Positions 17,365 to 31,305 of a DNA stretch of 34,982 nucleotides are shown piece by piece. Each line of letters starts with the position of its first letter. Within the stretch, counting starts at the first letter, position 1. The translations under genes were made by a program, and so were the position numbers. The notes beneath the pieces were generated by a model. The model saw only the letters and a program-made list of their open reading frames with translations. It searched no databases and had not been told where the DNA came from. Location of the stretch: NCBI GenBank assembly GCA_936920195.1, contig CAKZHE010000114.1:1-34982 (forward strand), read 5' to 3'. Origin of the DNA: an uncultured cyanobacterium (lineage in GTDB: Bacteria; Cyanobacteriota; Cyanobacteriia; Cyanobacteriales; FACHB-T130).

Positions 17365-18690
17365 CTACAATTGATTCCGAGCTTTTAATTGCAAATATCG
17401 GTCTACCAATTGGTTGCTGATTTGATTGGCTGGAGCATCCAAGACTAAAACCCCTTTTTGTTTCAGTTGGGCAAAAGCCACTTGCCTTTGGGCTAATAAA
17501 TCGAGGGCAACGGCACGATTATAGCCATCAGCAACGGTTAAACTGGGAGCATGGGCGATCGCATCCACTTGAGGATCTCGCAAAGTCACGCAAAAGGGCA
17601 AATAGCGGGGAACAAGTCGCCCTAAAGCTCCCAGCAATTCCGCCGAAGCCGTGACATCCACCAAATCGGTAATTAGCACCACCAAGGCGCGGCGACTTTG
17701 CTGATTAACCAATCTTGTCACTGCTCCCACATAATCCGGTTCTAGTAAAGTGGGTTGAATGGGAGTCAAACGATCGATTAATTTGGGTAATTGATTATTT
17801 CCCCGTTCTGGTGGAATCCAAGTCACAATTTCTCGGTCAAAAACCCCTACTCCCACCTTATCACCGCGATGTAGACCCGCCAAGGCGAGGGCAAGGGTGG
17901 CATTGAGTCCCCAATCAAATCGCTTTAAACCCTGTACTTGGGCGGTCATTAAACGCCCTCTGTCCAGTAAAATAATTAGAGTTTGCTCCTGTTCTGGCTC
18001 CAAAACTCGCACTTGGAGAGGTGGTGCTAGAGTAGCGGCGGCACGTCGAGCCGTGGCTTTCCAATCAATTAAGCGAGGGTCATCCCCCATCCGATATTCT
18101 CGCAGTTCGGCAAACTCCGTGCCAATCCCCATCCGCTTGCCTTGCTTCATCGTGCCAGTATTTTGTAAAGTCAGGCGAATGGTGAGCGATCGCAAGTTCA
18201 TTAAATCTGGATAAACTGCTACTTTAACGCTTTGGGGAATTTGCCAATTCATCCAAGTTAAACCCCATTGTCCCAACTGCCGCACTTGAATATTGCCCCA
18301 GGCAAATTCGCCTCGGTGGGTAGGATGGACGGTATAAGTTAATTCTTGAGTGCTATTTTGGGGTAGGGTAACGGCTAGGGGCGCAGACAATCCGCCAAAT
18401 TCTGTGGGATAATGGTCGAGAATTAGTAATTGGACAGGGCGATCGCCTGATTCAACCGTTAAAGTTACAGTATTATCTCTGCCAATCGAGAGTCTTCCTA
18501 GGGGAGAACGGGTAATTTTAACTTGATGAGGACGCGCTCGGAATTCATCCACTACCATCAATAGCAACAGAATTACATCAAAAATCAGCGCTCCGGCAAT
18601 GCCAGCCGATACCTGCCAAATATCAGAAATAGCGATCGCGATCGCCATCCCCAAGAATAATAATAAATAAACTCGTTGGGTAGGAATCAT
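17365..18690 (-). CDS. DUF58 domain protein
   Basis: The protein has 441 residues. Two N-terminal membrane segments (about 7-24 and 28-46) precede a beta-rich region (55-160) and the DUF58 signature GTEFAELREYRMGDDPRLIDWKATAR, here split at residues 193-202 and 203-218. A von Willebrand A-like domain follows (LIILLDRGR, ALVVLITDL; about 240-400). Known: DUF58 proteins often sit beside MoxR AAA+ ATPases and transglutaminase-like proteins; none is adjacent here. Function is not established. ATG 18690 is the only reasonable start. A DUF433 gene lies 44 bp downstream on the same strand. Confidence 0.93.
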   Translation of the reverse strand: MIPTQRVYLLLFLGMAIAIAISDIWQVSAGIAGALIFDVILLLLMVVDEFRARPHQVKITRSPLGRLSIGRDNTVTLTVESGDRPVQLLILDHYPTEFGGLSAPLAVTLPQNSTQELTYTVHPTHRGEFAWGNIQVRQLGQWGLTWMNWQIPQSVKVAVYPDLMNLRSLTIRLTLQNTGTMKQGKRMGIGTEFAELREYRMGDDPRLIDWKATARRAAATLAPPLQVRVLEPEQEQTLIILLDRGRLMTAQVQGLKRFDWGLNATLALALAGLHRGDKVGVGVFDREIVTWIPPERGNNQLPKLIDRLTPIQPTLLEPDYVGAVTRLVNQQSRRALVVLITDLVDVTASAELLGALGRLVPRYLPFCVTLRDPQVDAIAHAPSLTVADGYNRAVALDLLAQRQVAFAQLKQKGVLVLDAPANQISNQLVDRYLQLKARNQL

Positions 18691-18793
18691 ATCATGTCCG
18701 GTTGATTAACCTTGATATCTGGGTAAGGGCGGGTTTGGGGATGAATTTTGATCCTCACCAATAACCTCGATCAAACCGCTCCCACTCACTTCA

Positions 18794-19870
18794 CTATTGT
18801 AGAGTTTCGTTCAATCTAGCTGCTTCTGCCAATAATCTTATTGCTTCTTGCTGACCAATTTCATCCGGTGAGATTGCCCATAATTGCATTAACAATTGAG
18901 TAAATTCAGCGGCGGGTAAAACTGATACAGGTGTAAACCAGACTGTGGCTGAAGGAGTGGATTCCCCAAAGCGCGATCGCCAAAAGTTTTCTAGAATAGA
19001 AAGCTGGGCTTCCTGTCTACCTTCCTGTTTGCCTTCCTGTCTACCTTCCTGTCTACCTTCCTGTCTACCTTCCTGTTTCGCCGCTGCGAGTTTTTCCTGA
19101 AATACTGGGGCAATTGCCATAACTAACTCCCGATCTTCCGTTTCTAATTCCTGTGCTTGATTGCTGGCGAGATTGGACTGCAACTGATAAAGTAATTCTA
19201 GCGTGTTTGTCCGCAAGGCATCGCTCATGCTTAAAGCTGTCAATTCCGCGATCGCTTTTCTTTGCACTTTCCCTCGCCCTAAGAGCCTTAACCACAGAGT
19301 TTCTGATGTCGCGGGTAACTGATGAATTACCACAATTGCAGTTTTTAAAAACTCTCCTAAAAAATAGATTCCCGGCAACCAATTTTCTAAATCTGGGGTA
19401 GCGTGAAACCCCTGTAATAAAGTGGCTGATGCCGTCGGAGTCAGAATCCATAATTTAGGCATCGCCATTTCATCAACCCGAAGATTTTCTCTTCTAGCTC
19501 GCCGCTCTAGCTCGGCACTGACATCAAGTAACTTTCCCAAACAACTAGAAATTTCCGGGCTACTAACTGGATTGCGAAATGGCTCAAAAATGGCGGGGGA
19601 TGTGGCCATTTTACCTAATGTTCCCAGTTGCCGTACATAATCTGGGGCTGCGGTTGTGGGGGTAAAATAAATATCGACAAATCTGGCTTCGGAAGTGACT
19701 TCCCGATTGAGATTGACTACCCCTAAGCGAGAAAGCGCTTCTTCTAAATAATCTTTGGCAAATCTGTCGTGAATGAATCTAGTCATCAAACGTGACGTAT
19801 TTGTTTCTTGCCAGATTCTACCATTCCAAAAATCCAGATTGGGCTTTGATGACTGCGGGATTGTCGTCAT
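18794..19870 (-). CDS. PD-(D/E)XK-like protein with QEGR repeat linker
   Basis: The protein has 358 residues. The N-terminal part (MTRFIHDRFAKDYLEEAL, EARFVDIYFTP) carries an acidic pattern like the Rpn/transposase-associated PD-(D/E)XK nucleases that are abundant in cyanobacteria and often mislabelled 'flagellar assembly protein H'. Near residues 262-290 a tetrapeptide repeat (QEGR/QEGK, about six units) forms a charged helical linker, encoded by 12-bp DNA repeats at 19009-19080. The C-terminal 60 residues are helical (SPDEIGQQEAIRLLAEAA). No neighbour suggests a role. Family call moderate; nuclease activity is not shown. Confidence 0.7.
   Translation of the reverse strand: MTTIPQSSKPNLDFWNGRIWQETNTSRLMTRFIHDRFAKDYLEEALSRLGVVNLNREVTSEARFVDIYFTPTTAAPDYVRQLGTLGKMATSPAIFEPFRNPVSSPEISSCLGKLLDVSAELERRARRENLRVDEMAMPKLWILTPTASATLLQGFHATPDLENWLPGIYFLGEFLKTAIVVIHQLPATSETLWLRLLGRGKVQRKAIAELTALSMSDALRTNTLELLYQLQSNLASNQAQELETEDRELVMAIAPVFQEKLAAAKQEGRQEGRQEGRQEGKQEGRQEAQLSILENFWRSRFGESTPSATVWFTPVSVLPAAEFTQLLMQLWAISPDEIGQQEAIRLLAEAARLNETLQ
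19009..19080. repeat. 12-bp tandem repeat (six units) within a coding region
   Basis: Units of CTTCCTGTCTAC (plus strand), with the second and last units altered in 2-3 bases, encode the QEGR/QEGK repeat of the minus-strand protein. The unit is a multiple of three, so copy-number changes would keep the frame. Confidence 0.9.
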
Positions 19871-20079
19871 TAATGATTTGTACAGCTAGATTATCTATCT
19901 AGAATCACTTCCTAGGCAGGGCAAGCCCTCAAATATGCAAGAGCGTCGCTACAGCAGAAGCTAGAGATGCTCCCAAAAGAGAAAATCCCCCAATTGATAC
20001 ATTTGTGGCAGAGAGGTTGTTGGATCCCAACCATTGATTTATTCCGTCAAGTAACTTATTATTAAGGTGAACTCAGCTT

Positions 20080-20109
20080 TTGCTACCTATCCAAAATATA
20101 GTCTATAAT
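20080..20109 (+). promoter_or_regulatory. Candidate sigma-70-type promoter
   Basis: TTGCTA (20080-20085), an 18-bp spacer and a perfect TATAAT (20104-20109) precede the 20166 gene, leaving a leader of about 50 nt. Confidence 0.55.
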
Positions 20110-20165
20110 CACTTCTATTGGTTATATATCTCAGCAGGGACGCATCCAAATCTACCACTGGGGCA

Positions 20166-23066
20166 ATGAACACCACACAAGCACCACCGACCACAGAAAA
20201 TTGGCAGAACTATATTTGTCCAGACTTGACTGCCCATTGGCAACTAGGCAAGTTGAAGGACACCGGAGAAATCGTTCTCCAAAGTAAAGACGGTTCCCGA
20301 CAGTTGCGGCTCTCTGCTGATTGCGGTACGGTGCTGCAATACTGTACGGGAAAGTTCACTGCTGTCCAAGTGCAACAACGATGCGAACTGGAGTTGGGTA
20401 AAGGAATTTCCTCGAACTTTGTGTTTGAGGTACTCCAGAAACTAATTGATTTAGAAGTAATTCCACCTCCCACAGAGCCAGCAGTTGCCGAATCTAGCCC
20501 GACACCTGCCGCTGAAACAACGAACACGCCTCCCCCACCAGCTACTAGCCCCTATAGTCTTAAACCCTGCGTTCATTGGATCTTTCATCCCCAAGGATAC
20601 TGGATTTTACGCAATCCAGAAGATGTGACTTTTTTACAAGTAGATAGTCGGAGTAAAGCTGCTATTGAGGATTTAGCCTATCTTCCACCAGGGGAAGTTG
20701 CCCAAAAGCACCAAATCGATCAAAACCAATTGCGCTATTTACTGCAATTGCTCTCTGCCACGGCAATGTTGATAGGGACAACGCCACCCCCACCCAAGCC
20801 GAAACCTTGGCCTTTTGGTCCGGGCAAGTTTACTCCCATGTCCTTGCTGTTTTTTCAATTTTCTCTCTTCAATCCTGACCCGTGGTTAAGCAAACATATC
20901 GATAAGTTGCGGTGGATTTGGACGGGAATTTTTGGTTTCATCCTCTGCGCTTTTATAGGTTACTCCGCTGCCTTGGGATTGCATGAACAGCAAAGCATGA
21001 TTTCAGCTGGCAAGCGATTAATGCAAGAACAAGGAGCCTTGCTATTGCTACCTTTTGTTCTCTTGTCTTTGCTAGTTGTAACTATTCACGAACTAGGCCA
21101 TGCTTTTACTCTCAAGCACTACGGCGGCATTGTGCCAGATGTGGGAATGAGATTTATGCTGCTCATGCCTTCAGCCTATACCAATACTACCGATTCCTAT
21201 TGTTTGGTGAAACGCCGCCAGCGGGTATTGGTAGTGGGGGCAGGGATTATGGTACAGATTGTAATTTGGGCGATCGCTTTCTGGTTATGGAATATCTCTA
21301 GTGCTGGAACATGGTTATCTATTACCAGTTTACTCCTGATGGCGGCAGCCCTATTTACAGTTGCCATCAATCTCAATCCCCTATCTAAATTTGATGGTTA
21401 TTATTTAGCCTCAGCTTTGAGTGGGATTAATAATCTTCGCAGTCGCTCTTTTGCCCTCTATGGCAATTTGTTGCGCTTCCGCCCGATTCAGGAAAAGTTT
21501 AGCGACGCACTTGTTCTGATTGCCTATGCGCCTTTCAGTCTGGCTTACACCATCTTTGTCTTTGGTCATTTGTTAGGCTTTCTAGCTGAATTCAGTTTAG
21601 GAAATATTCCTTTTCTTACCCTAACATTATTAGGATTATGGGCAATTTATTTCTTTTGGCCTGAAGACAAAAATGCCACAAATACTGCTAATTCAAACCC
21701 TCCTACACCCATGAATAACCTAACTGCTCCACCAAAATCATCAGTGAAAACTGCTCCGCCAACCAATAACCAAAAGCCATCGGAACAGATTGTTAATAAT
21801 AACATCAGTGACCAGAAAGCTCCTGCCCCTAAACCTACTCCTGCCCCCCCAGTACCTAAAAAATCCTACCACTGGCAATTAATTATTGTGGCGGGTTTAG
21901 TTCTGGTAAGCTTTGTCAATGTTCCCTTTGATGTGGGTGGGACAGTACAATTAGAAACCAAAGAAGGTACTAGAGCATTGGCTCGCGCCCCCCTACCGGG
22001 AGTAATTCAAAAAATTCTGGTCAAACCAGGGGAGCAAGTCATCAAAGGACAAACCCTCGCCTATTTGTCTAGTGCTGAATTGGAAAAAGAGATTGCGGAA
22101 ACGCAACAAAGATTAGATGGTACGAAACTGCAATTAGAAGATATGCAGCGTCGGCAAGCCCAAACTAAAGCTGATTTGGCAAGAGCGGAAGCAATTAGTT
22201 TATCTGCCAATGAAAAAGCGAACCGTTATGGCGATCGCGCTAGTAGAATGAATCTAGGACAATTGCCGCCAGATATTCAATCCTTAGAAGCCCAAAAATC
22301 CCGATTGCAAAGTCTTGTCCGAGATGCTGAGGTGAGAGACAATCGGCGGCAAGAACTGGCTCGTCTTGGAGCTATATCCAGAGAAGATGCTGGCAAAGTC
22401 AGAACTGAAGTGGAATCTTTGCGAAATGATATCAGAGCCAAGGAAGAAGAAATTAATTATGCCAAACTCCGATTGCAGGATCATGCCTCTGAAACGCAAG
22501 CCGAGAGTTATACCCAAAAAACCATTCTTATTGGAGCGCAGATGGTAAGATCGGCTCAAGAGCAAATTAGTGCTTTTGAGAAAGCGATCGCCAACTACGA
22601 AGCCCGCATCAAACAACTTAAAACTGCCAAAGAATCTCTGATTCTCACCGCGCCTATTAGTGGCATTGTCCTAACTAATGACCTAGATAAGAAACAGTTC
22701 AAAGAATTAAGACCCAGCGATGAGTTTTTACTAGAAATTGCTGACTTGAAACAACTAACTGCTATCGTGGAAGTGCGAGAAGAAGATATGAAATATGTAG
22801 AAGTTGGCAAGTCAGTTACCTTTAGACCGTTACTAGATAAACTCCGGGCTTATAATGCCAAAGTTGAGCAGATCTTGCCGCAAGTTCAAATTGACCCCAA
22901 CCAGCAAAAGAAAGCTGTTTTAGTACGGATTGTGGTGGATAATACTGATGGTCAATTACTCCCAAAAGGCAGCGGTTACGCCAAAGTTTGGTCAGAGTGG
23001 ATTCCCTTATATCGCCGGATTGGGCGAGAAGTCAAGCGTCTAATTCCGATTGAAAAATTCCTATAA
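20166..23066 (+). CDS. PqqD-like x2 / M50 peptidase-like / HlyD adaptor fusion protein
   Basis: The protein has 966 residues. (1) About 18-100: PqqD-like winged helix (LSADCGTVLQYCTGKFT ... VFEVLQKLIDLEVI). (2) About 132-205: a second PqqD-like segment (NPEDVTFLQVDSRSKAAIEDL). (3) About 225-505: a membrane domain with the zinc motif HELGH (308-312) and NPLSKFDGYY (404-413), as in site-2 proteases (M50). (4) About 510-566: a Pro/Asn/Lys-rich linker. (5) One TM at about 571-589, then an HlyD-type adaptor: a split lipoyl/barrel (APLPGVIQKILVKPGEQV, APISGIVLTNDL) around a long coiled coil (about 640-800). Known: PqqD-like domains bind peptide leaders in RiPP pathways; M50-HlyD fusions occur with peptide export. 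No precursor peptide or ABC exporter is adjacent. ATG 20166 was chosen over a TTG at 20118. Confidence 0.88.
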   Translation: MNTTQAPPTTENWQNYICPDLTAHWQLGKLKDTGEIVLQSKDGSRQLRLSADCGTVLQYCTGKFTAVQVQQRCELELGKGISSNFVFEVLQKLIDLEVIPPPTEPAVAESSPTPAAETTNTPPPPATSPYSLKPCVHWIFHPQGYWILRNPEDVTFLQVDSRSKAAIEDLAYLPPGEVAQKHQIDQNQLRYLLQLLSATAMLIGTTPPPPKPKPWPFGPGKFTPMSLLFFQFSLFNPDPWLSKHIDKLRWIWTGIFGFILCAFIGYSAALGLHEQQSMISAGKRLMQEQGALLLLPFVLLSLLVVTIHELGHAFTLKHYGGIVPDVGMRFMLLMPSAYTNTTDSYCLVKRRQRVLVVGAGIMVQIVIWAIAFWLWNISSAGTWLSITSLLLMAAALFTVAINLNPLSKFDGYYLASALSGINNLRSRSFALYGNLLRFRPIQEKFSDALVLIAYAPFSLAYTIFVFGHLLGFLAEFSLGNIPFLTLTLLGLWAIYFFWPEDKNATNTANSNPPTPMNNLTAPPKSSVKTAPPTNNQKPSEQIVNNNISDQKAPAPKPTPAPPVPKKSYHWQLIIVAGLVLVSFVNVPFDVGGTVQLETKEGTRALARAPLPGVIQKILVKPGEQVIKGQTLAYLSSAELEKEIAETQQRLDGTKLQLEDMQRRQAQTKADLARAEAISLSANEKANRYGDRASRMNLGQLPPDIQSLEAQKSRLQSLVRDAEVRDNRRQELARLGAISREDAGKVRTEVESLRNDIRAKEEEINYAKLRLQDHASETQAESYTQKTILIGAQMVRSAQEQISAFEKAIANYEARIKQLKTAKESLILTAPISGIVLTNDLDKKQFKELRPSDEFLLEIADLKQLTAIVEVREEDMKYVEVGKSVTFRPLLDKLRAYNAKVEQILPQVQIDPNQQKKAVLVRIVVDNTDGQLLPKGSGYAKVWSEWIPLYRRIGREVKRLIPIEKFL

Positions 23067-23135
23067 AAATAGGATTAGTTGCCGTTCCCTTTGGTTTGTA
23101 GCGGTTCTCAATTGAGCAATTGACTTTAAACCTGC

Positions 23136-23201
23136 GTAGGGGGGCGGGTTTATTCAGGTTATTGGCAAGGATTAAAATTCCTGCCCAAACCCGCCCCCTA
23201 C
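23136..23201. repeat. GTAGGGGG-CGGGTTT hairpin repeat
   Basis: Arms GTAGGGGGGCGGGTTT (23136-23151) and AAACCCGCCCCCTAC (23187-23201) pair with one bulged G. It follows the M50-HlyD gene by about 70 bp and may end its transcript. A one-armed relative lies at 12048-12080. Confidence 0.75.
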
Positions 23202-23220
23202 ATAAATCATAGGCTCTGTG

Positions 23221-23898
23221 TTAGCGAAGCGTGTCAAAGGTATTTGCGCTCGCTCTATCGCCTGTTGATTGCTGCTCGTACATCGCTCTCAATACTGTGG
23301 CTGGGTCTACATAATTATTCGCATATTTTAATCCCCAGTGTAGGTGTGGGCCTGTGGTGCGTCCTGTCATCCCCACTCTACCAATTCGCGCCCCGGCGGG
23401 AATTTCCTGCCCTAACCAAAGGAGAATACCACCTTCGCGATCGCTTAAATATCTTCCTTCGGCAGAAGTTTCTACCCCACCTTTCATGTGACAATAAATA
23501 TGCTGCCATTCCCCAGATTTAATCGTAATTGAAGTGCCGCAGTTGGTATGATCGGAAACTTCTACCACTTTTCCCGCCCACCAATTGCGAATATAACTAC
23601 CTTGGGGAGCGGCAATATCTAAACCCCGGTGAAATTCCCAGCCAGAGGAACCAGAAGGCGATGGACGATAACCAAAGGGGGAAGTATAGGCTTGGAAATT
23701 TTCTACTGGGAAAGAAGCATTCCGCCAATTACCCTCAACGGCGGCGCGTTCAACAGGCACTTCTTGAGCGCTTACTCCTGGATTTAATATTCCCCCAACA
23801 GCGATCGCGCTGACAATCCCTAATCCCAACAACAGCAAAAGTTGCCCTAAACGCCAAAAACTTTTTCGGAAAGCTGTAATTGGGAACTTTAACTGCAT
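23221..23898 (-). CDS. M23 family metallopeptidase (LytM/peptidoglycan hydrolase-like)
   Basis: The protein has 225 residues. An N-terminal signal peptide or anchor (about 14-41, LLLLLGLGIVSAIAVGGIL, cleavage near VSAQE) is followed by a single LytM domain. Zinc ligands: His and Asp in HRGLDIAAP (about 117-125), the later His pair in IYCHMKGG and GPHLHWGL. All expected ligands are present, so it should be an active endopeptidase cutting peptidoglycan cross-links in the periplasm. ATG 23898 was chosen because GGAG lies 7 bp upstream; a TTG at 23919 would lengthen it by seven residues. It follows pheS on the same strand behind a terminator. Confidence 0.93.
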   Translation of the reverse strand: MQLKFPITAFRKSFWRLGQLLLLLGLGIVSAIAVGGILNPGVSAQEVPVERAAVEGNWRNASFPVENFQAYTSPFGYRPSPSGSSGWEFHRGLDIAAPQGSYIRNWWAGKVVEVSDHTNCGTSITIKSGEWQHIYCHMKGGVETSAEGRYLSDREGGILLWLGQEIPAGARIGRVGMTGRTTGPHLHWGLKYANNYVDPATVLRAMYEQQSTGDRASANTFDTLR

Positions 23899-23932
23899 AA
23901 ACCTACTCCTAAATCCCAACTTGATTGACTCC

Positions 23933-23966
23933 TAAAAGAAAATAGGGCAGACATCTTGCCTGCCCC
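23933..23966 (-). terminator. Rho-independent terminator after pheS
   Basis: On the minus strand, GGGCAG (complement of 23960-23965) pairs with CTGCCC (complement of 23945-23950) around a 9-nt loop and is followed by TATTTTCTTTT. It begins about 25 bp after the pheS stop and separates it from the M23 gene. Confidence 0.7.
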
Positions 23967-23990
23967 GTTATTGGTAGATGCACAAACTTT

Positions 23991-24995
23991 TCAAAACTGG
24001 CGCAAAAAGCGCAGGTCGCTACTGTAGAGGCGGCGAATATCATCTATTTGATGGAGTACCATCGCGAAGCGCTCTACTCCGAAGCCAGCAGCAAACCCCG
24101 TATAAACTTCTGGGTCGTAGCCCACTGCTTTCAGCACATTCGGGTCAACCATACCACACCCCAGCACTTCTAACCAGCGTCCCCGCCACTGCACGTCTAC
24201 TTCTGCCGAAGGTTCAGTGAAGGGGAAATAACTAGCACGAAAGCGGATGGGCAAGTCATCCCCAAACATTTGGGCGATGAATTCTTTTACAGTACCCTTG
24301 AGGTCGGTAAAAGTCAATCCCTCATCCACAGCTAAAATTTCAATTTGGTGGAAAACGGCGGCGTGGGTGGCATCTACCGTATCCCGGCGATAGCAGCGTC
24401 CCGGCGCAATAATCCGCACAGGCGGCTCATTTTCTTCCATGTAGCGAATTTGGACAGAAGAAGTATGAGTTCGCAGCAAATTGCCATCGGGCAAATAAAA
24501 AGTATCCTGCATATCCCGCGCCGGGTGGTCAGCAGGAGTATTCAGGGCTTCAAAGTTGTAGTAATCCGTCTCCATTTCTGGCCCTTGGGCGAGGGTATAG
24601 CCCAAACCGACGAAGATATCCACCACCCGGTCAATGGTGCTGTTAATCGGATGTCTGCGGCCTTGGGGACGATAAACAGCGGGCATGGTGACATCCAAGG
24701 TTTCCGCTGCTAACTGGGCTTGAATTTGCAGCCGCTGTAAGTCGTTACGCTTGCGGTCTAATTCAGTTTGCAGAGCTTCTTTGACTTCATTGGCAGTCGC
24801 CCCAATCCGAGGACGGTCAGCGGCATCTAATTTGCCCAAACCGCCTAAAACCTTGGATAATTGCCCTTTTTTCCCTAGGTAAGCGATCCGCAATTCCTCT
24901 AGGTGAGGTAAATTATCTGTGGTAGCGATCGCCTGAATTGCTTCTTGTTTGAGCGCAGCTAATTGATTCTCCAGCGCGGTGAGCGTAATAGTCAT
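23991..24995 (-). CDS. pheS: Phenylalanine--tRNA ligase alpha subunit
   Basis: This subunit charges tRNA-Phe in the (alpha-beta)2 complex. Length 334 residues, normal for bacterial PheS. The N-terminal coiled coil binds tRNA (about 1-85, [19 protein letters not shown]). The class II catalytic core starts near 90. Motif 2: [17 protein letters not shown]. Motif 3: [14 protein letters not shown] and [21 protein letters not shown] and [13 protein letters not shown] are family signatures. ATG 24995 gives the usual N-terminus. It is divergent from surE (101 bp between starts). PheT is not in the window, as is common in cyanobacteria. Confidence 0.98.
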
Positions 24996-25096
24996 TCAAT
25001 TTTGGATTTGAGATTTTCCCTACTTGCATCCTAGTTTAGCGAGTTAGTGGCTAGGGCAGTTAAAATAAAAAAGCCTTATCAGCTTCCATTCCCCCG

Positions 25097-25897
25097 ATGA
25101 AATTGCTCGTCAGCAACGATGATGGTATCTTCGCCCTCGGTATTCGGACTTTGGCAAATGTTCTCGCTAAAGCTGGTCACGATGTCACAGTAGTTTGTCC
25201 CGACCAAGAACGTTCTGCCACTGGTCACAGTTTGACTCTCCACCATCCCATCCGTGCTGAAATAGTTGACTCGCCCATGTTTCATCCAGAGGTGCAGGCT
25301 TGGTCTTGTTCTGGCACGCCTTCGGATTGCGTCAAGTTAGCTTTGAGTGCTTTGCTAGATAGTCCCCCCGATTTAGTCTTATCTGGCATTAATCATGGTT
25401 CCAATCTTGGCACTGATGTCCTCTACTCTGGCACCGTTTCAGCAGCGATGGAAGGTGTCATGGAAGGCATTCCTAGTATTGCCTTTAGTTTGACCAGTTA
25501 TACTGCCCGGGAATTTCAGGTTGCTGCCACCTTTGCCACTAATCTGTTGTTAAAACTGGTACAGCAACCCCTACCGCAACCGATGCTGCTGAATATTAAT
25601 ATCCCAGCGGTGGAATCAAAAGAAATTGCTGGGGTGATGATTACTCGGCAAGGCATTCGCCGCTATTTTGATGTGTTTGAAAAGCGGGTAGACCCACGAG
25701 GCAAAACCTATTATTGGCTGGCTGGTGAAGCTATTGAGGAAATCGACCAACCTAATAATAGTCAGTTGCCAGAGAGCATTATTACCGATGTTCAGGCAAT
25801 TCGCCAAAATTATATCTCAGTTACGCCTTTGCAATACAATCTCACTTCTGCGGAGGGAATATATAGTTTGCAAAATTGGGGGTTTGAAAAGTTATAG
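25097..25897 (+). CDS. surE: 5'/3'-nucleotidase SurE
   Basis: This cytosolic metal-dependent phosphatase removes phosphate from nucleoside monophosphates and is linked to stationary-phase survival. Length 266 residues. The metal site is VSNDDG (Asp8, Asp9), with the serine in [12 protein letters not shown] (Ser39) and the Asn in [22 protein letters not shown], all intact; [11 protein letters not shown] is also typical. It starts 101 bp from the divergent pheS and is convergent with the DUF2993 gene (50 bp gap, no clear terminator). Confidence 0.97.
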
Positions 25898-25947
25898 AAA
25901 TATCTAGTAGAGGTAACCTGCTAACTCCGCAAAATGGTTGAAACTAA

Positions 25948-26739
25948 TCAAAGAGGTGCAACTTGCACAAAGGTAGCTAATTCTATCTGTTGGCTATCAA
26001 TATTCAATTTTAAAATCCGCGCCAAGATTCCAGAACTTTCTAAGCTGCGAAGATCGAATTGCGTACCAATAGCACCAGTTAAAACTCGGACTAATTGGGG
26101 GGGGATTGGTTGTTCGTTAATGCTCAAAACTGGATTGACTAATTGCAAACTGCGCCCTGCTACCACATTTAAACCGGATTCCAAGCTCACAGCTAAGGGT
26201 TCAGCGTTGGTAGCGGTGAGTTGAGCTTGAAAGCGCAAGCGGTTTTCTGCCAAAAGTTTTACTTGGGGATTAACCAATTGGTAGCTTTGACCAGCTTGCG
26301 CCCCAGGTAATTGTAGCAATTTGCCCGCAATTTCCTGCAATTTTTCGTTGACAAGAGGCGATCGCAAAGCTCGGTTAATATCTTCTTCTGTCAGCGCTAA
26401 ACGCACTCCGGCTTGCAAGGGTTGTTCTAGCAGTTGTCTAAAAGAACCCCCAGCAGCTTGAGATTGACGAGCTAAATCCAGACTAACAGGATCGGTTTCC
26501 AGTTCCAAGGTATCCAGCCGAATATCTGGCGTTAGCCATGCTCCTCGGCTGGCAACGCGGACATGATTGGCTTTGCCTTGGAGAATTTGATGAGTAGGAG
26601 CATTATCAATCCGGACTTTTAACTGTTCTACTCGCTGAAATTGGGAGCGAATGGAACTTTCAGCGGTACTATCAGTCAGTAGTCCGCCCACGGAGACGAC
26701 GGTAAGCAAGCTAGAAAGTAATATGGTGAAAAATTCCAT
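25948..26739 (-). CDS. DUF2993 (LmeA-like) lipid-binding protein
   Basis: The protein has 263 residues. The N-terminus holds a signal peptide or anchor (about 1-22, FFTILLSSLLTVVSVGGLL). The rest matches the DUF2993 layout: ELETDPVSLDL, LTEEDINRALRSPLVNEKLQEI, LRFQAQLTA and LQLVNPVLSINEQPIPPQLV. Known: mycobacterial LmeA of this family binds phospholipid and supports lipomannan maturation; the cyanobacterial role is not established. It is probably exported or periplasmic. Convergent with surE. Confidence 0.85.
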   Translation of the reverse strand: MEFFTILLSSLLTVVSVGGLLTDSTAESSIRSQFQRVEQLKVRIDNAPTHQILQGKANHVRVASRGAWLTPDIRLDTLELETDPVSLDLARQSQAAGGSFRQLLEQPLQAGVRLALTEEDINRALRSPLVNEKLQEIAGKLLQLPGAQAGQSYQLVNPQVKLLAENRLRFQAQLTATNAEPLAVSLESGLNVVAGRSLQLVNPVLSINEQPIPPQLVRVLTGAIGTQFDLRSLESSGILARILKLNIDSQQIELATFVQVAPL

Positions 26740-26808
26740 TTAGTTTGTTGGGGGTAAAATTATTCTAGGACTGACGCAGCGTTCAAATTGCCAGAATTGC
26801 CACTTGAT

Positions 26809-27618
26809 TTAATTCAAGTCAATAATCGTTGGTCGTACTTGCTCAACATCTAGCTGCAAAATATCAGCAATTTCTTCAACGGAAAATCCTTTGGCTACCA
26901 AACGGGGAACTGTCTGCAATTTTCCTTCGGTAATACCTTCAATCTTCCCTTCAATCTTCCCTTCTGCAATTAACTCTTGAGCAAAGCGAGTTTTCTTCAA
27001 ATCATCAACGCCAAACATATCTTCTAACTCCTGCCGACTCATTTGGGGCAATTTAGCAACCACGATTGTCTCTAATAGATTTAACAACTGTAACCGCGCA
27101 GACTCTTCCGTGAATTGTTGTTGAACTTGCTCAATTAACTCCTTCGCTCTCTCCAAAAACTGTTTCTTTTTGACAACTATTAATTGAATGATTTTGATCC
27201 CTAAAGGAGTAGTATCGCTGACTTCTAACTCATTCAAGTATATACATCTAACCAGGTCAGAATCTAACAACGGTTGGACAGATTCTCGTTGTCTGGCATT
27301 GGGTTCAATGCTCCGACTCTTAAAGATGATTGTAGCTCGCCAGCGTAAATCGGGTTGATTTTCTCGTAAATATGTGAAAATCTCGGAAAATAACCGCAGA
27401 TAGATACTAGGATCTTTCTGAAATTGAACTTCGGTGAAATAAATGGGGCGATCTGGGTTATTGGGTAAGAACACCCCATCAATCCGAAAGGCTGTCTGTT
27501 TCAATTCTACGGAATCAAAACGGTAATGGTTGGTCTGTTCGGGAGATTCTGACCATAATTCAAAGAAGGTTTGGGGTAAGTCTTTAAAAATGCGATAAAA
27601 GATATGGTCTGTTTTCAT
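26809..27618 (-). CDS. DUF2887 / Rpn-like PD-(D/E)XK nuclease
   Basis: The protein has 269 residues. The N-terminus MKTDHIFYRIFKDLP and the catalytic pattern RIDGVFLP ... IYFTEVQFQKD (Asp, then E-x-Q) identify the DUF2887 branch of the Rpn/transposase-like PD-(D/E)XK family. The C-terminus carries EGKIEGKIEGITEGK repeats and a helix-turn-helix-like tail (VAKGFSVEEIADILQLDVEQV). Known: Rpn proteins promote RecA-independent recombination in E. coli; in cyanobacteria they are multicopy and of uncertain role. It lies 84 bp downstream of proS on the same strand, with a repeat hairpin between. Confidence 0.88.
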   Translation of the reverse strand: MKTDHIFYRIFKDLPQTFFELWSESPEQTNHYRFDSVELKQTAFRIDGVFLPNNPDRPIYFTEVQFQKDPSIYLRLFSEIFTYLRENQPDLRWRATIIFKSRSIEPNARQRESVQPLLDSDLVRCIYLNELEVSDTTPLGIKIIQLIVVKKKQFLERAKELIEQVQQQFTEESARLQLLNLLETIVVAKLPQMSRQELEDMFGVDDLKKTRFAQELIAEGKIEGKIEGITEGKLQTVPRLVAKGFSVEEIADILQLDVEQVRPTIIDLN

Positions 27619-27639
27619 GTTCTAGTTTTTTTGTAGGTT

Positions 27640-27694
27640 GGGCAATGCCCATCAGCATCTAAAAAGTTGATGTTAACATTGATAGGCATTGCCC
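27640..27694. repeat. GGGCAATGCC / GGCATTGCCC hairpin
   Basis: Perfect 10-bp arms (27640-27649, 27685-27694) are separated by 35 nt between proS and the DUF2887 gene. No T-run follows on the minus strand, so a terminator role is uncertain. Confidence 0.65.
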
Positions 27695-27702
27695 CTCTAC
27701 GG

Positions 27703-29730
27703 TTAATGACTAGCTTGGATGGCGGCATCAATCCATGCTTTCAAAGTTGTTGCTACTTCTGCCAAGGGAATTTCTTGGGCTTGTCGAGTAGCACGGGTGA
27801 CAACTTCTACTTGGCCATTTTTGAGAGATTTTCCGGTGACAATTCGATAGGGGATGCCAATTAAATCAGCATCTTTGAATTTTACTCCGGCTCTTTCATC
27901 GCGGTCATCTAAAAGGGTTTCAATTCCCGTTGCATTGAGTTGTTGATAAAGCTGTTCGGCGGCGGCGGTTTGTTCTCCATCGGAAATATTGGGAACAGTA
28001 ATGATAACTTGATAAGGAGCGATCGCTACAGGCCAAATAATCCCATCTTTATCATAAGATTGTTCGACGGCGGCTTGGGTGAGGCGGGAAACCCCGACTC
28101 CATAACAACCCATGACGAGGGGAGTTTCTTCTCCCTGTTCGTTGGTGTAGGTGGCTCCGAGGGCTTGGGAATATTTTGTCCCTAGCTGAAAAATATGTCC
28201 GGCTTCAATCCCCCTAGCTGATTGTAAGATTTGTTCCGGGTTATGAACAGCGCGATCGCCTGGTCTGGCTTTTTGGACATCAATGGCTGCGGGCAGTTCA
28301 AATTCTGTTCCCCAATTTGCCCCGACAACATGATATCCTGACTGATTAGATCCGGTAACAAAGTTCTTTAAATTAATCGCTGTCTGGTCTACTAAGCGTA
28401 GAAATTTCCCAGCCACAGATTCTCCTGACAATGATTCCAATGCCTTCTTGAGTGCGCGACGAGTTTGGGGTTGAATTCTGGTATCGGCGAGCTTAGTTTT
28501 CAGGGCAGCTTTGATATCCTGAGCGTCATACAATTTGATTACGCCTTTACCGGGAGAAAATTCCAATCCTGCCACTAATTCCCCAATAATCCGATCGGCA
28601 ATTCCCAAATCTCTTAAAGTGGTTCTATTGATCTTTTCGTTAGATTTGATGTAGTCGTCGGATAGGTTGGGGGCAATATAACCTACGGGTAAAGGTTTGG
28701 TTGCCCATTGTTCTTGAGCAGCCGTATCGGGAACTTTTAGCCCCACAATGGTTTTGGCTCCGTAGTTGGCAGCAATTTGGGTAAGATAGTTTTGCAGCTT
28801 GACTTCGTTGACATCGCGATCGCCCCGAATACTCACCAGTGCTAAAACTACTTTGCCATTATCGTAGACAACTTGGTAAATGACGTTTTTAACTACTTGG
28901 GTGGGAGAACAATTGAGGAATTTACAGATTTTCTCAATGGTATTAGTCTCCGGAGTTTTACGTTGTTCGTAACTGGTAAAACTAGAGGGAACTGCATCGG
29001 GAGGTAAAGAGATAGCTTTTTCCACATTGGCAGCGTATTTGCCATCTTCTGTGTACAAAACTTCATCTTCCCCAGCCTCGGCTAAAATCATAAATTCCTG
29101 GGAACCAGAACCACCAATGGCTCCGGAATCCGCATCAACGGCTCGAAATGCTAAACCACTGCGGCGCAGCATATTGCTGTAAGCTTGGTGCATCTCTTGA
29201 TAAGTCTTTTTGAGGCTCTCTTCATTGGCGTGAAACGAGTAGCCATCCTTCATAATGAATTCTCGCCCCCGCATCAAGCCAAACCGGGGACGAATTTCAT
29301 CCCGAAACTTAGTTTGAATTTGATAGAGGTGGAGGGGCAATTGCCGATAGGAACGAATTGTATCGCGAGCGATCGCTGTAATAATTTCTTCGTGGGTTGG
29401 TCCCAATCCCACTTCCCGCCCTTGTCTATCTGTCAAGGCAAACATAATCCCTTCTGCCTGGGTGTAAGTATCCCAGCGCCCCGACTCTCGCCACAATTCT
29501 GCGGGTTGTAGTTGGGGTAGCAGGCATTCTTGTGCGCCTGTGGCATTCATTTCTTCGCGGACAATTTGGGAGACTTTTTGCAGTACCCGCCACATCAGGG
29601 GAAGATAGGCATAGATGCCGCTACCGATGCGACGAATATAACCGGCACGCAGTAGTAATTTATGACTAGGAATTTCTGCTTCTGCCGGATCTTCCCGCAG
29701 GGTGACAAAAAACATTTGAGAGAGTCGCAT
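27703..29730 (-). CDS. proS: Proline--tRNA ligase with enlarged editing domain
   Basis: This class II synthetase charges tRNA-Pro and, in the bacterial type, clears Ala-tRNA-Pro. Length 675 residues, against about 570-605 for bacterial or cyanobacterial enzymes as remembered. Catalytic core: [26 protein letters not shown] (motif 2 region), [21 protein letters not shown]. The INS/YbaK editing domain spans about 230-470, then the anticodon-binding C-terminus (about 560-675, [18 protein letters not shown]). Within the editing domain, about residues 362-443 ([20 protein letters not shown] ... [14 protein letters not shown]) form an extra segment between [13 protein letters not shown] and [17 protein letters not shown], which are adjacent in usual members. 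An IS end lies 16 bp upstream of the ATG. Confidence 0.96.
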
Positions 29731-29746
29731 CGTTTATCAGAAAAAT

Positions 29747-29823
29747 GGGTCTAAAACCCCGTCCTTCTAGGACGGCTTGATGTATTTTATGCTAACATCA
29801 GGATGTGGTAATTGGTCAGTCCC
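29747..29823 (+). mobile_element. IS200/IS605-type left end of a tnpB element
   Basis: GGGTCTAAAACCCCGTCC with hairpin arms CCGTCCT (29759-29765) and AGGACGG (29769-29775) is followed by a short leader containing TATGCTAACAT, and then the tnpB start at 29824. The same TATGCTAACAT precedes the second tnpB fragment, about 45 bp before its ATG on the minus strand. Confidence 0.65.
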
Positions 29824-30340
29824 ATGATTGTCTACGAGTTCAAAGTCAAGGGAAAAGACAAGCAATATCGGGCAATAGACGAGGCTATTCGTACTAGTCA
29901 ATTCATCCAGAATAAGTGCTTGCGCTACTGGATGGATAACCAAGGCGCGAGTAGGTATGACCTCAACAAATATTGTGCAGTATTAGCTGCTGAGTTTCCT
30001 TTTGCCGATGAACTAAACTCAATGGCTAGACAAGCTGCTGCCGAACGCTCTTGGTCAGCAATAGCTCGGTTTTACGACAACTGCCAGAAGAAGATTAAGG
30101 GTAAAAAGGGTTTCCCTAAGTTTAAGAAAAATTGCCGTTCAGTTGAATACAAATCATCTGGATGGAAACTTTCAGAGGCTAGAAAAGCGATAACCTTTTC
30201 AGACCAGAAAGGAATCGGGACTCTGAAGCTAAAGGGAACTTACGATCTTAACTACTACGACATCAAGCAAATTAAGCGTGTACGGTTAGTGCGACGTGCT
30301 GACGGCTACTACGCTCAATTCGCAATTAATGTTGATGTCA
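29824..30340 (+). pseudogene. tnpB: Truncated TnpB (IS200/IS605, IS1341-type), 5' part
   Basis: About 172 codons of a TnpB N-terminus: MIVYEFKVKGKDKQYRAIDE, RTSQFIQNKCLRYWMDN, ARQAAAERSWSAIARFYDNC, SVEYKSSGWKLS, RVRLVRRADGYYAQF. TnpB is the RNA-guided nuclease ancestor of Cas12, normally about 400 residues. This copy ends before the RuvC catalytic core, so it is dead. From about 30341 the frame runs into antisense of a second copy. ATG 29824 is the equivalent of the second copy's start; a TTG at 29812 is not needed. Confidence 0.88.
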
Positions 30341-31146
30341 AGGTCGTTAGACTTGCATACGTTACGCGCCATTCTCTTGGCGTGTTCAATCCGTTGTCTA
30401 CTTACTTTTAAATGTTTTTTCGCGTAAACTTTTCTGGCTTTCCGTCTTCCCGATGAACCCTTGACTTTTTTATAGATTTGTTTCTGAGATTGCTTAATTG
30501 ATTTTTCAGCCTTTCTGAGAAACTTAGGATTAGGTTCTTGAGCGCCGTTCGAGTCTGTATAAAACGACTCAATGCCCACATCAAGTCCGATTTCCTTTCC
30601 AGTTTTCGGTTGAATATCAGTGACGGTAATGTTTAGACAAAATTGGGCGTAATAGCCATCAGCACGACGAATCAAACGCACTCGTTTTATGTCTTTAACA
30701 TTGTAGGTATGGATATCCCATTTCCCCAGCAATTTAAGTTTTCCAATCCCGTTTTTATCGGTAAAGGTAATTTGCCTTTTGGTTGGGTGTAATTTCCATC
30801 CCGATGTTTTATATTCAACGGAACGACAATCTTTTTGGAATCGGGGATATCCTTTTTTGCCAGAAATCTTTTTCCGACAATTGTCGTAGAAACGACTAAT
30901 GGCAGTCCATCCTCGCTCGGCTGCGGATTGGACTGCCATTGAATTTAGGTCGGCAACAAAGGGAAATTCCTTTCTGAGAGTTGTGGAATACTTGTTTAAT
31001 GCGAATTTATCAATTTTTAAATCTCTGGGCGCATCCATCCAATATCGAATCGCTTTATTGCGAATGAATTGGGTTGTACGGATAGCTTCGTCAATAGATT
31101 TGTATTGATTATGTTTACCTTTAACTTTGTATTCCAGAACTATCAT
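30341..31146 (-). pseudogene. tnpB: Truncated TnpB, second copy in opposite orientation
   Basis: About 268 codons of TnpB: MIVLEYKVKGKHNQYKSIDE, RTTQFIRNKAIRYWMD, MAVQSAAERGWTAISRFYDN, the first RuvC aspartate in EIGLDVGIESFYTD, then the bridge-like helix SGRRKARKVYAKKHLKVSRQ. It stops at ARNVCKSNDL, just before the conserved E-D-L segment, so it lacks the RuvC Glu, the last Asp and the zinc finger. Beyond the join it reads antisense of the first copy. ATG 31146 was chosen; the open frame extends upstream to 31275 only through intergenic DNA. The two copies are similar but not identical, so they come from different elements of one subfamily. Confidence 0.88.
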
Positions 31147-31234
31147 AAGGGATTTCCTCTGTTTTCGACCTGCTATAATGTTAGCATAGATTGGAGAAAT
31201 ATTCACGGGGTTAAAACCGCAGTCGCTTTGCTCC

Positions 31235-31305
31235 AATTCAAAATTCAAAATTATCAATTCAAAATTCTGATTCATTTTGAACTTTGAATTTTAAATTTTG
31301 AATTC
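31235..31305. repeat. AT-rich AATTCAAAATT direct and inverted repeats
   Basis: Repeated ATTCAAAATT units on the left (from about 31237) face ATTTTAAATTTTGAATT on the right (to about 31303), able to form an AT-rich hairpin. It lies upstream of the second tnpB fragment. Nothing coding is visible. Confidence 0.6.

Follow-up and report, generated by a model that had tools for sequence, protein, structure and literature searches.

What could a single membrane protein that joins peptide-binding domains, a protease and an export adaptor act upon, if its surroundings offer no substrate? The question is raised by one gene in a window of 34,982 nucleotides (the whole stretch of DNA analysed; contig CAKZHE010000114.1 of assembly GCA_936920195.1) from an uncultured cyanobacterium of the FACHB-T130 lineage. 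Its product of 966 amino acids (aa) combines two domains that resemble PqqD and the recognition elements (RREs) of ribosomally synthesised and post-translationally modified peptides (RiPPs), an M50 or site-2 protease (S2P) membrane core and an HlyD-like adaptor. A preliminary description of the locus expected a short RiPP-type peptide as the substrate, and the substrates that we found linked to the protease are instead giant multidomain proteins (803-3477 aa in the same genome). Our results point to a route, apparently not described before, by which very large proteins are processed and probably exported. With a probability of roughly 0.7, we read the fusion as a membrane platform for the leader-directed processing and probable export of giant exoproteins, on which it would act in trans.

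Giant proteins with a common leader

We compared 80 named related loci (79 cyanobacterial by title and one from Phycisphaerales), with flanks of up to 10 kb. The commonest neighbour of the protease was a family of giants (51 open reading frames (ORFs), joined by single linkage on shared domains), which occurred in 47/80 loci and was followed by a sensor-kinase-like family (24/80) and a 230-aa family (15/80). The large proteins near the protease in these relatives (1500-2250 aa) have a common N-terminal tag. A regular expression for this motif matched 35 of the 51 giant-family members, and many of the other 16 begin at the end of a contig or locus. A motif-bearing leader ORF was located near the PqqD-M50 gene in 36/80 loci (37 by the expression, one counted as chance). 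When the stop-to-stop ORFs in the same loci were restricted to those with a complete 5' end and a length of 600 aa or more, the motif was present in 34/68 lying up to 4 kb from the protease and in 0/43 of the others. Judged from the sequences, the substrate link between the protease and the tagged giants is strong. Regex matches at L074 (minus strand) and L097 were set aside as chance. The sensor-kinase-like family (30 ORFs), whose members resemble PAS/sensor kinases by eye, was treated as generic, and the 230-aa neighbour looked PEP-CTERM-like by eye.

The same loci bear on the possibility that the fusion matures a RiPP and that its small precursor escaped notice. The leader peptidase assigned to the daptides is itself an RRE-S2P fusion, and the M50 part of our protein is closest to the model of that peptidase, NF041824, which was its best NCBIfam match; the score of 126.4 bits is nevertheless far below the cut-off of 300. 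When neighbouring ORFs of at least 45 aa were clustered, no family shorter than 150 aa was found in more than 7/80 loci, in contrast to the giants, and a small-peptide precursor was rejected within this size range. We find this explanation very improbable.

In the genome of the window itself, a degenerate LExIxTP pattern gave 13 matches, compared to 10 for a reversed control. Four of the 13 are located near the starts of long ORFs; the other nine, which are not starts of giant ORFs, were set aside. All four long ORFs have the N-terminal tag AFILEPILTPSG in common, an agreement that extends beyond the search pattern, and the leader peptide sequence standing for this tag is KAFILEPILTPSGLVD. The leader codons differ synonymously (38 differences over six pairs of 27 bases), and the flanks of the tag differ among the four. 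These giants are 1484, 803, 1681 and 3477 aa long and lie on four contigs (C8, C64, C117 and C166) other than that of the window. The claim of a missing substrate therefore held for the window as far as it was examined and failed for the genome, and the suggestion of action in trans on a substrate encoded elsewhere gains four candidates.

All four giants contain subtilase and DUF4114 domains, and some also P-domain, Calx-beta, C-type lectin, PPC or beta-propeller domains, a repertoire that appears to be of the surface or extracellular type. A giant from Nostoc (L106) had no Pfam match in the scan, and no NCBIfam model matched nine cyanobacterial giant N-termini. The maximum hydropathy over 15 residues was 1.13-1.32 in the four giants and at most 1.14 in the leaders of 35 relatives, compared to 2.81 in the M23 peptidase of the window, used as a control. 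Judged by these maxima, the giants would lack a strongly hydrophobic N-terminal stretch and have no evident Sec signal.

Co-occurrence of leader and protease

The leader and the protease also occur together across genomes. In a sample of 292 cyanobacterial genomes, 21 had a protease match at E 1e-20, and a stricter pattern (FxLExIxTP plus two bases), run over the same genomes, matched 27, of which 14 had the protease and 13 did not. When the frames around the fetched matches were read, not all of them to their ends, canonical long leader ORFs were counted in 13/21 protease-bearing and 0/271 protease-less genomes (Fisher p 1.5e-17), and by genus in 8/16 and 0/100 (p 2e-8). The fourteenth protease-bearing match (G072) was set aside as chance. 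Two genera are divided within themselves, the two traits being present or absent together: in g9, three genomes (G039, G195, G203) have both traits and G099 has neither, and in g35 two (G157, G262) have both and G255 neither. A protease profile search of seven of the 13 pattern-positive protease-less genomes gave one marginal match only (E 9e-4).

Domains and folds of the fusion protein

The single-chain fusion described earlier is real: one ORF encodes all its parts (Table 1). AlphaFold modelled the full chain with a mean predicted local distance difference test score (pLDDT) of 81.4 and a predicted template modelling score of 0.50; for residues 1-210 alone, the mean pLDDT was 88.4.

Table 1. 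Positions in the window of the fusion gene and of the parts of its product (AF2, AlphaFold 2).
Feature	Residues	Position	Strand	Basis
Whole gene, RRE-RRE-M50-HlyD fusion protein	966 aa	20166..23066	+	ATG 20166, stop 23066
RRE/PqqD-like domain 1, near-invariant CP at 18-19	about 16-101	20211..20468	+	AF2, VIA
RRE/PqqD-like domain 2	about 128-205	20547..20780	+	VIA-align
M50/S2P membrane core	helices within 238-497	20877..21656	+	Pfam, NF041824, AF2 helices
HELGH zinc/catalytic motif	308-312	21087..21101	+	alignment of 19 sequences
NPLSKFD motif	404-410	21375..21395	+	alignment of 19 sequences
Linker, low-confidence, Pro/Asn-rich	505-586	21678..21923	+	pLDDT < 50 in most
HlyD/EmrA-like periplasmic adaptor	583-955	21912..23030	+	Pfam, fold comparison

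Both N-terminal units are modelled as three strands followed by three helices in a winged fold; in the first, the strands are at residues 25-29, 36-40 and 46-49 and the helices at 51-58, 66-77 and 85-95. Residues 5-101 align with PqqD (5sxy) with a VIA-align Z of 8.9 over 92 residues at 2.8 A. Residues 128-204 align with the leader-bound lasso B1 protein 6jx3 (chain B) with a Z of 10.8 over 76 residues at 2.0 A, and the second domain with the RiPP leader-binding protein TbiB1 (5v1u_A, solved with leader peptide) with a Z of 10.0. The top Foldseek ranks belonged to the same PqqD/leader-binding class, with modest E-values (best 0.013). At the sequence level the sole PDB profile match of domain 1 was PqqD 3g2b, and it was weak (E 0.26). 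The Pfam PqqD model PF05402 had no match in the 966-aa protein and weak matches in 2/35 relatives; it was above the cut-off in 1/10 planctomycete homologues (28.1 bits) and reached 22.8 bits (cut-off 23.4) in a plasmid homologue. According to the models, then, residues 18-205 form two domains of PqqD/RRE type, as had been proposed.

The protease core likewise agrees with the preliminary description, which had noted intact motifs of the site-2 protease kind. H308, E309, H312, N404, P405 and D410, which we take to be the third zinc ligand, are invariant in the 19 aligned sequences (this protein included), and HExxH together with NP....D was present in 77/80 related loci. Peptidase_M50 (Pfam) scored 25.0 bits, just below its cut-off of 27.2, and passed it in some homologues (31.4 bits in a plasmid and 36.8 bits in a planctomycete one). 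When the M50 profile was searched against PDB sequences, all matches were at chance level.

For the C-terminal part, the predicted HlyD adaptor with a coiled coil was confirmed by HlyD_D23 (PF16576, 64.7 bits) and HlyD_3 (PF13437, 48.7 bits), both above the Pfam cut-off, by long helices at residues 636-825 and by the alignment of residues 583-955 with EmrA (4tko; Z 17.8, 322 residues, root-mean-square deviation 9.1). Fold matches to the coiled coils of toxin complexes and Smc were taken to reflect long helices and set aside. The separate genes of relatives meet at the linker, as their M50 genes end near residues 497-505 and their HlyD genes start near 516-564 in the numbering of the fusion.

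Fused and split forms

The preliminary description regarded the fusion as unusual, which it is not in the sense of being unique. A separate HlyD gene follows the RRE-M50 gene in 11 of the 20 longer loci from the 21 protease genomes, one of them (G062) with broken frames. In the 80 loci HlyD is a separate neighbour of PqqD-M50 in 45 and fused in three (L067 and L073 from Coleofasciculus, L077 from Limnofasciculus); the Phycisphaerales locus proves fused by Pfam. The Planctomycetota and Proteobacteria homologues that were tested also have the one-chain form. Ten planctomycete homologues were scanned, nine being open frames of 723-782 aa and the Phycisphaerales one (L145) given as 710 aa, and HlyD domains were above the cut-off in eight, weak in a ninth and undetected in the tenth. 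In three cyanobacteria (G002, G066, G207) no HlyD is beside the M50 gene, and a relative is encoded elsewhere (E 5e-69 to 8e-78), at a distance of 0.5-0.75 kb from a giant with a leader (TPSG in G066 and TPGG in G002 and G207). From such positions, HlyD appears to belong to the leader-giant system.

Two groups of loci depart from these forms. Proteases of the Microcoleus/Tychonema type (L114-L117, L119-L121, L124, L127, L129, L130, L132, L141 and L143) align only from about residue 95-132 onward, so that the first RRE is apparently missing; no adjacent HlyD was found, and they are paired with leaders of the FILE[KR]I[VI]TPSA type. In Kastovskya (L135/L047; G062), the M50 and HlyD genes are split by stops and no canonical leader pattern matched, an apparent decay of the whole system.

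The distribution of HlyD matters for the possibility that the system performs processing only, with the RRE-M50 part trimming the leader, a conventional type I (ATP-binding cassette, ABC) or Sec machine encoded elsewhere exporting the giants and HlyD serving as an accessory adaptor. Lineages without an adjacent HlyD do retain PqqD-M50 and leader giants, the HlyD part is like the DevB/MacA/EmrA adaptors that serve ABC or major facilitator superfamily pumps, and the genome of the window has one outer-membrane factor ORF, elsewhere than the fusion gene. On the other hand, HlyD is fused or adjacent in 48/80 loci and, in the three genomes above where it is split off, lies beside the giants, and no ABC-ATPase-like ORF was found in the 80 loci by a simple motif test (Walker A plus LSGG[QEM]). 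The unrelated transport system beside homologs that might have explained the fusion was thus not seen, as far as this motif test of the 80 loci goes. Furthermore, in the annotated plasmid loci described below, no ABC gene interrupts the group of giant, HlyD and M50 genes; ABC genes occur further off, a type I one about 5 kb away in Phyllobacterium and others further downstream in two Rhodobacterales loci. We consider processing only a possible explanation, short of an even chance.

Planctomycetota and plasmids

A comparable tag on large proteins is LEPR-XLL (NCBIfam NF012209, cut-off 17 bits). In 119 Planctomycetota, searched for the protease at E 1e-15, all 13 LEPR-XLL genomes were among the 28 protease genomes (p 4.8e-10), and in most of them the tag and the protease are on different contigs or far apart. 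The Phycisphaerales locus contains a 943-aa ORF with RVDSLEERILMSAS, which scored 17.1 with the LEPR-XLL model in the genome scan and 15.3 as an 80-aa piece. The model had no match above the cut-off in the genome of the window, matched 0/9 cyanobacterial N-termini and reached none of the three LE-x-R-x-x-F-D-[AG]-A N-termini scanned.

This co-occurrence in a second phylum bears on a further alternative, in which the protease would carry out regulated intramembrane proteolysis of an unrelated membrane substrate and the giants would be passengers of the same islands. Such proteolysis is a common role of M50 proteases. It accounts poorly for giants encoded in trans, for association in two phyla, for an N-terminal motif common to otherwise different proteins and for HlyD beside giants, and we give it hardly any credence.

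Matches were also found on 69 plasmid records, of which 16 were examined by choice and 13 of these were annotated. In operons on proteobacterial plasmids, tagged giants and HlyD occur together with PqqD-M50-HlyD and with TolC, a SecA-like ATPase or both. In 10/13 annotated loci, an upstream gene in the same direction encodes a protein of about 4000-16,000 aa; the others have a 1412-aa gene (Phyllobacterium), a long unannotated frame (Pseudohalocynthiibacter) or none annotated (M382). TolC-family genes are annotated in 6/13. A tag was present in 11/12 plasmid giants whose start was read (Phyllobacterium included): six have the form [LIM]EPR-x-LL-[SNA]-AD, five have LE-x-R-x-[LM]-[FY]-D-[AG]-A, and the Phyllobacterium protein is without a tag; three of these giants are labelled LEPR-XLL by NCBI. 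In Alisedimentitalea (L287, NZ_CP123586.1), the annotated start of the giant seems too far downstream, with an LEPRLLLAAD leader in frame upstream. Eighteen Escherichia and eight Citrobacter plasmid records had matches, and those listed share the same identity. One E. coli plasmid (L279/L290, NZ_CP081687.1) encodes an Ig-like protein of 4459 aa that has RFALESRQLFDGA near its start; after it come, in succession, genes for a TolC-family protein, for two adaptors and for an M50/HlyD protein.

A SecA-like gene (SecA DEAD plus preprotein cross-linking domains) is beside PqqD-M50-HlyD in 9/16 plasmid loci (L246, L247, L250, L273, L275, L276, L277, L280 and L281); the products are about 640-710 aa and are named SecA, prepilin peptidase, DEAD helicase or nothing. 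The LL-x-AD leader form occurs in the five SecA-bearing loci with a readable leader and the [FY]-D-[AG]-A form in five without SecA nearby, with Thalassospira as an exception (LL-x-AD-type leader, no SecA gene annotated nearby). The plasmid leaders may be sorted into two subclasses in this way, LL[SNA]AD where a SecA-like gene is present and [FY]D[AG]A where none is close by. Annotated DUF3467 genes occur in L248, L250, L275, L276 and L280. A second SecA-like gene was found 1-3 kb from the protease match in 5/5 LEPR-positive Planctomycetota tested (in G322 only 27% identical to the query), and none was found in 2/2 protease-positive LEPR-negative and 3/3 protease-negative ones. In 30 cyanobacteria no second SecA gene was found at E 1e-10 (no SecA match at all in G016), and two matches in one genome, where shown, were pieces of one gene. 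A dedicated SecA was consequently rejected for these cyanobacteria, where only the housekeeping type was seen.

A bolder form of our explanation would have a SecA-like ATPase, or housekeeping SecA in cyanobacteria, drive the giants across the inner membrane and directly into HlyD-TolC, by way of a passage that M50 itself forms or that is docked to M50. The plasmid and planctomycete genes, with their absence from the five LEPR-negative or protease-negative planctomycetes, are what speaks for it. Against this, no dedicated SecA was found in the cyanobacteria tested and none nearby in 7/16 plasmid loci, an M50 passage is purely hypothetical and SecA could equally feed SecYEG, and we regard this form as rather unlikely.

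Proposed mechanism

In the mechanism that we propose, giants without an evident Sec signal would carry a short leader about 20-50 residues from their start, in cyanobacteria of the form F-x-L-E-x-I-x-T-P-S behind a basic stretch. Two cytosolic RRE domains would bind this leader, perhaps by strand addition, the M50 core would cleave within the membrane, at this leader or close to it, and the HlyD/EmrA-like part would couple the site to TolC, with the rest of the giant leaving the cell. In its own genome the fusion would act on at least four giants in trans. In Planctomycetota and many Alphaproteobacteria, the energy would probably come from a SecA-like ATPase dedicated to the system. The combined role in recognition, cleavage and export, proposed in the preliminary description, is one that we also infer; it is supported by the folds, the motifs and the linked tagged giants, and the inference is drawn because the RRE-S2P protein of the daptides offers a precedent and EpeP has been proposed to cleave and export.

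Several points weigh against this reading. The support for binding, cleavage and secretion is indirect and computational. For domain 1, a methyltransferase chain that is not leader-binding (8hkr) gave a Z of 9.8, above PqqD, and therefore fold alone is no proof of function. The looser regex has chance matches (38 in the 1335 real ORFs, 13 in reversed and 3.1 on average in shuffled ones). The genomes are related, so the p-values of the co-occurrence overstate it. The stricter pattern also matched the 13 protease-less genomes, though in no long leader ORF: four of these matches read FxLExIxTPS, three in frames of 20-54 codons and one (G027, L167) in a frame of 74 codons with MASQSKKQRLAAETFLLEPILTPS near its start, apparently the remnant of a leader giant in a genome where no protease was found. 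Conversely, 8/21 protease-bearing genomes are without the canonical leader pattern. Four of the eight have variant leaders near the protease, LERLNTPS (G045, G135), LDENISPS (G091) and LDDIISPS (G072), which were looked for there, the contrast with protease-less genomes covering the canonical pattern; the others are G062 with its broken frames, G229 and G278 with short contigs and G016 with a distant match. No HlyD was found beside the protease in 32/80 loci (some cut by contig ends), no HlyD of the family was found at E 1e-25 in 6/21 protease genomes (G072, G091, G195, G203, G278 and G016), and the HlyD match of G039 (5e-27) is no better than those of 4/15 protease-less genomes. Finally, no ATPase was linked in cyanobacteria by the motif test of the 80 loci, which leaves SecA of the housekeeping type.

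As a wider and more tentative proposal, which we would not call probable, cyanobacteria, planctomycetes and proteobacteria may have in common a widespread and previously undescribed secretion route for giants, with an N-terminal LE-x-[IR] leader, RREs like those of peptide biosynthesis, M50 as both cutter and part of the passage, HlyD-TolC and a SecA paralogue where present. The form in the window would then be a reduced one-gene version serving several giants in trans.

The gene and its surroundings

The fusion protein had a single match in its own genome at E 1e-5, and an alternative TTG start 48 bases upstream of the ATG would give 982 aa. The gene stands alone, since the ORFs on either side (18794-19870 and 23221-23919) are on the minus strand; the first had no family above the cut-off in Pfam and NCBIfam scans, and the second is the M23 peptidase. 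The 'own promoter' suggested for it was not borne out, because promoter-like matches around the gene were at chance level (6 found, 5.6 expected). The reported lack of an ABC transporter held for the part covered, the ten window proteins (17365-31275) scanned against Pfam and NCBIfam models. An imperfect palindrome (gtaggggggcgggttt ... aaacccgccccctac) was spotted by eye at 23135-23210, downstream of the gene; it is perhaps a dispersed repeat or a terminator. A TnpB-family RNA-guided endonuclease gene (NF040570, 124 bits) is located on the minus strand at 30286-31275.

Comparison with known systems

EmrA/MacA adaptors have the fold of the C-terminal part of the fusion, in which the adaptor differs in sitting behind an RRE-M50 module. 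EpeP, which we take to be the YydH protein, belongs with the YydH-LiaK M50 proteins (NF058609); these act on a peptide, and to our knowledge they have no RRE or HlyD part. The fusion scores 41.9 bits with their model, below the cut-off of 225. The likeness is in the M50 protease, which in EpeP has been proposed both to cleave and to export, according to the accessible part of PMC10885120. In the daptides, the accessible part of PMC10036551 describes MpaP/DapP (NF041824) as an RRE fused N-terminally to an M50 intramembrane protease and assigns leader removal to this RRE-S2P protein, with ELExMEAP as the leader motif. This motif resembles the cyanobacterial LEPILTPS in its L-E-x-hydrophobic-x-x-P spacing by our own comparison, and the likeness may be convergent. 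The daptide peptidase differs in its short peptide substrates and accompanying modification enzymes, the same part of its description includes no HlyD part, and the fusion has two RREs.

Type I secretion (ABC, HlyD and TolC) and the C39 peptidase-containing ABC transporters (PCATs) have in common with our system an HlyD/EmrA-like adaptor and a presumed exit through TolC, and in PCATs leader cleavage is coupled to export, as the available part of PMC8277102 states. Here M50 replaces C39, the N-terminal leader is GG-less with an RRE-type reader, and no dedicated ABC exporter was found beside the adaptor or substrates in the ten window proteins and the 80 loci. The common element of the giants is N-terminal, and the comparison with type I was made without C-termini. 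LEPR-XLL is also an N-terminal tag (LEPR-x-LLSAD-type) of large proteins, and in Planctomycetota and Alphaproteobacteria it is linked to PqqD-M50-HlyD; it differs in that the model misses the cyanobacterial LEPILTPS form and names a domain without a stated function. Papers that use the term mention it in passing in their accessible parts, and that of PMC3482391 does not mention M50, PqqD or HlyD. No description of the LEPR-XLL/PqqD-M50-HlyD system was found in the literature searched, which was mostly open-access with few subscription journals or preprints. The parts belong to known families, and their combination and the protein substrates appear undescribed in this literature; we consider the system new because it has no linked ABC exporter, scores far below the daptide model and lacks a literature description.

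LEPR-XLL and the undescribed cyanobacterial tag thereby become candidate leader peptides, for which the fusion and its relatives offer a possible receptor, protease and adaptor. RRE-guided recognition is known from small natural products, and these results suggest that some of the largest bacterial proteins rely on it as well. They also suggest that there may be an exporter across both membranes that works without an ABC transporter. With the substrates and the receptor named, the question is directly testable.

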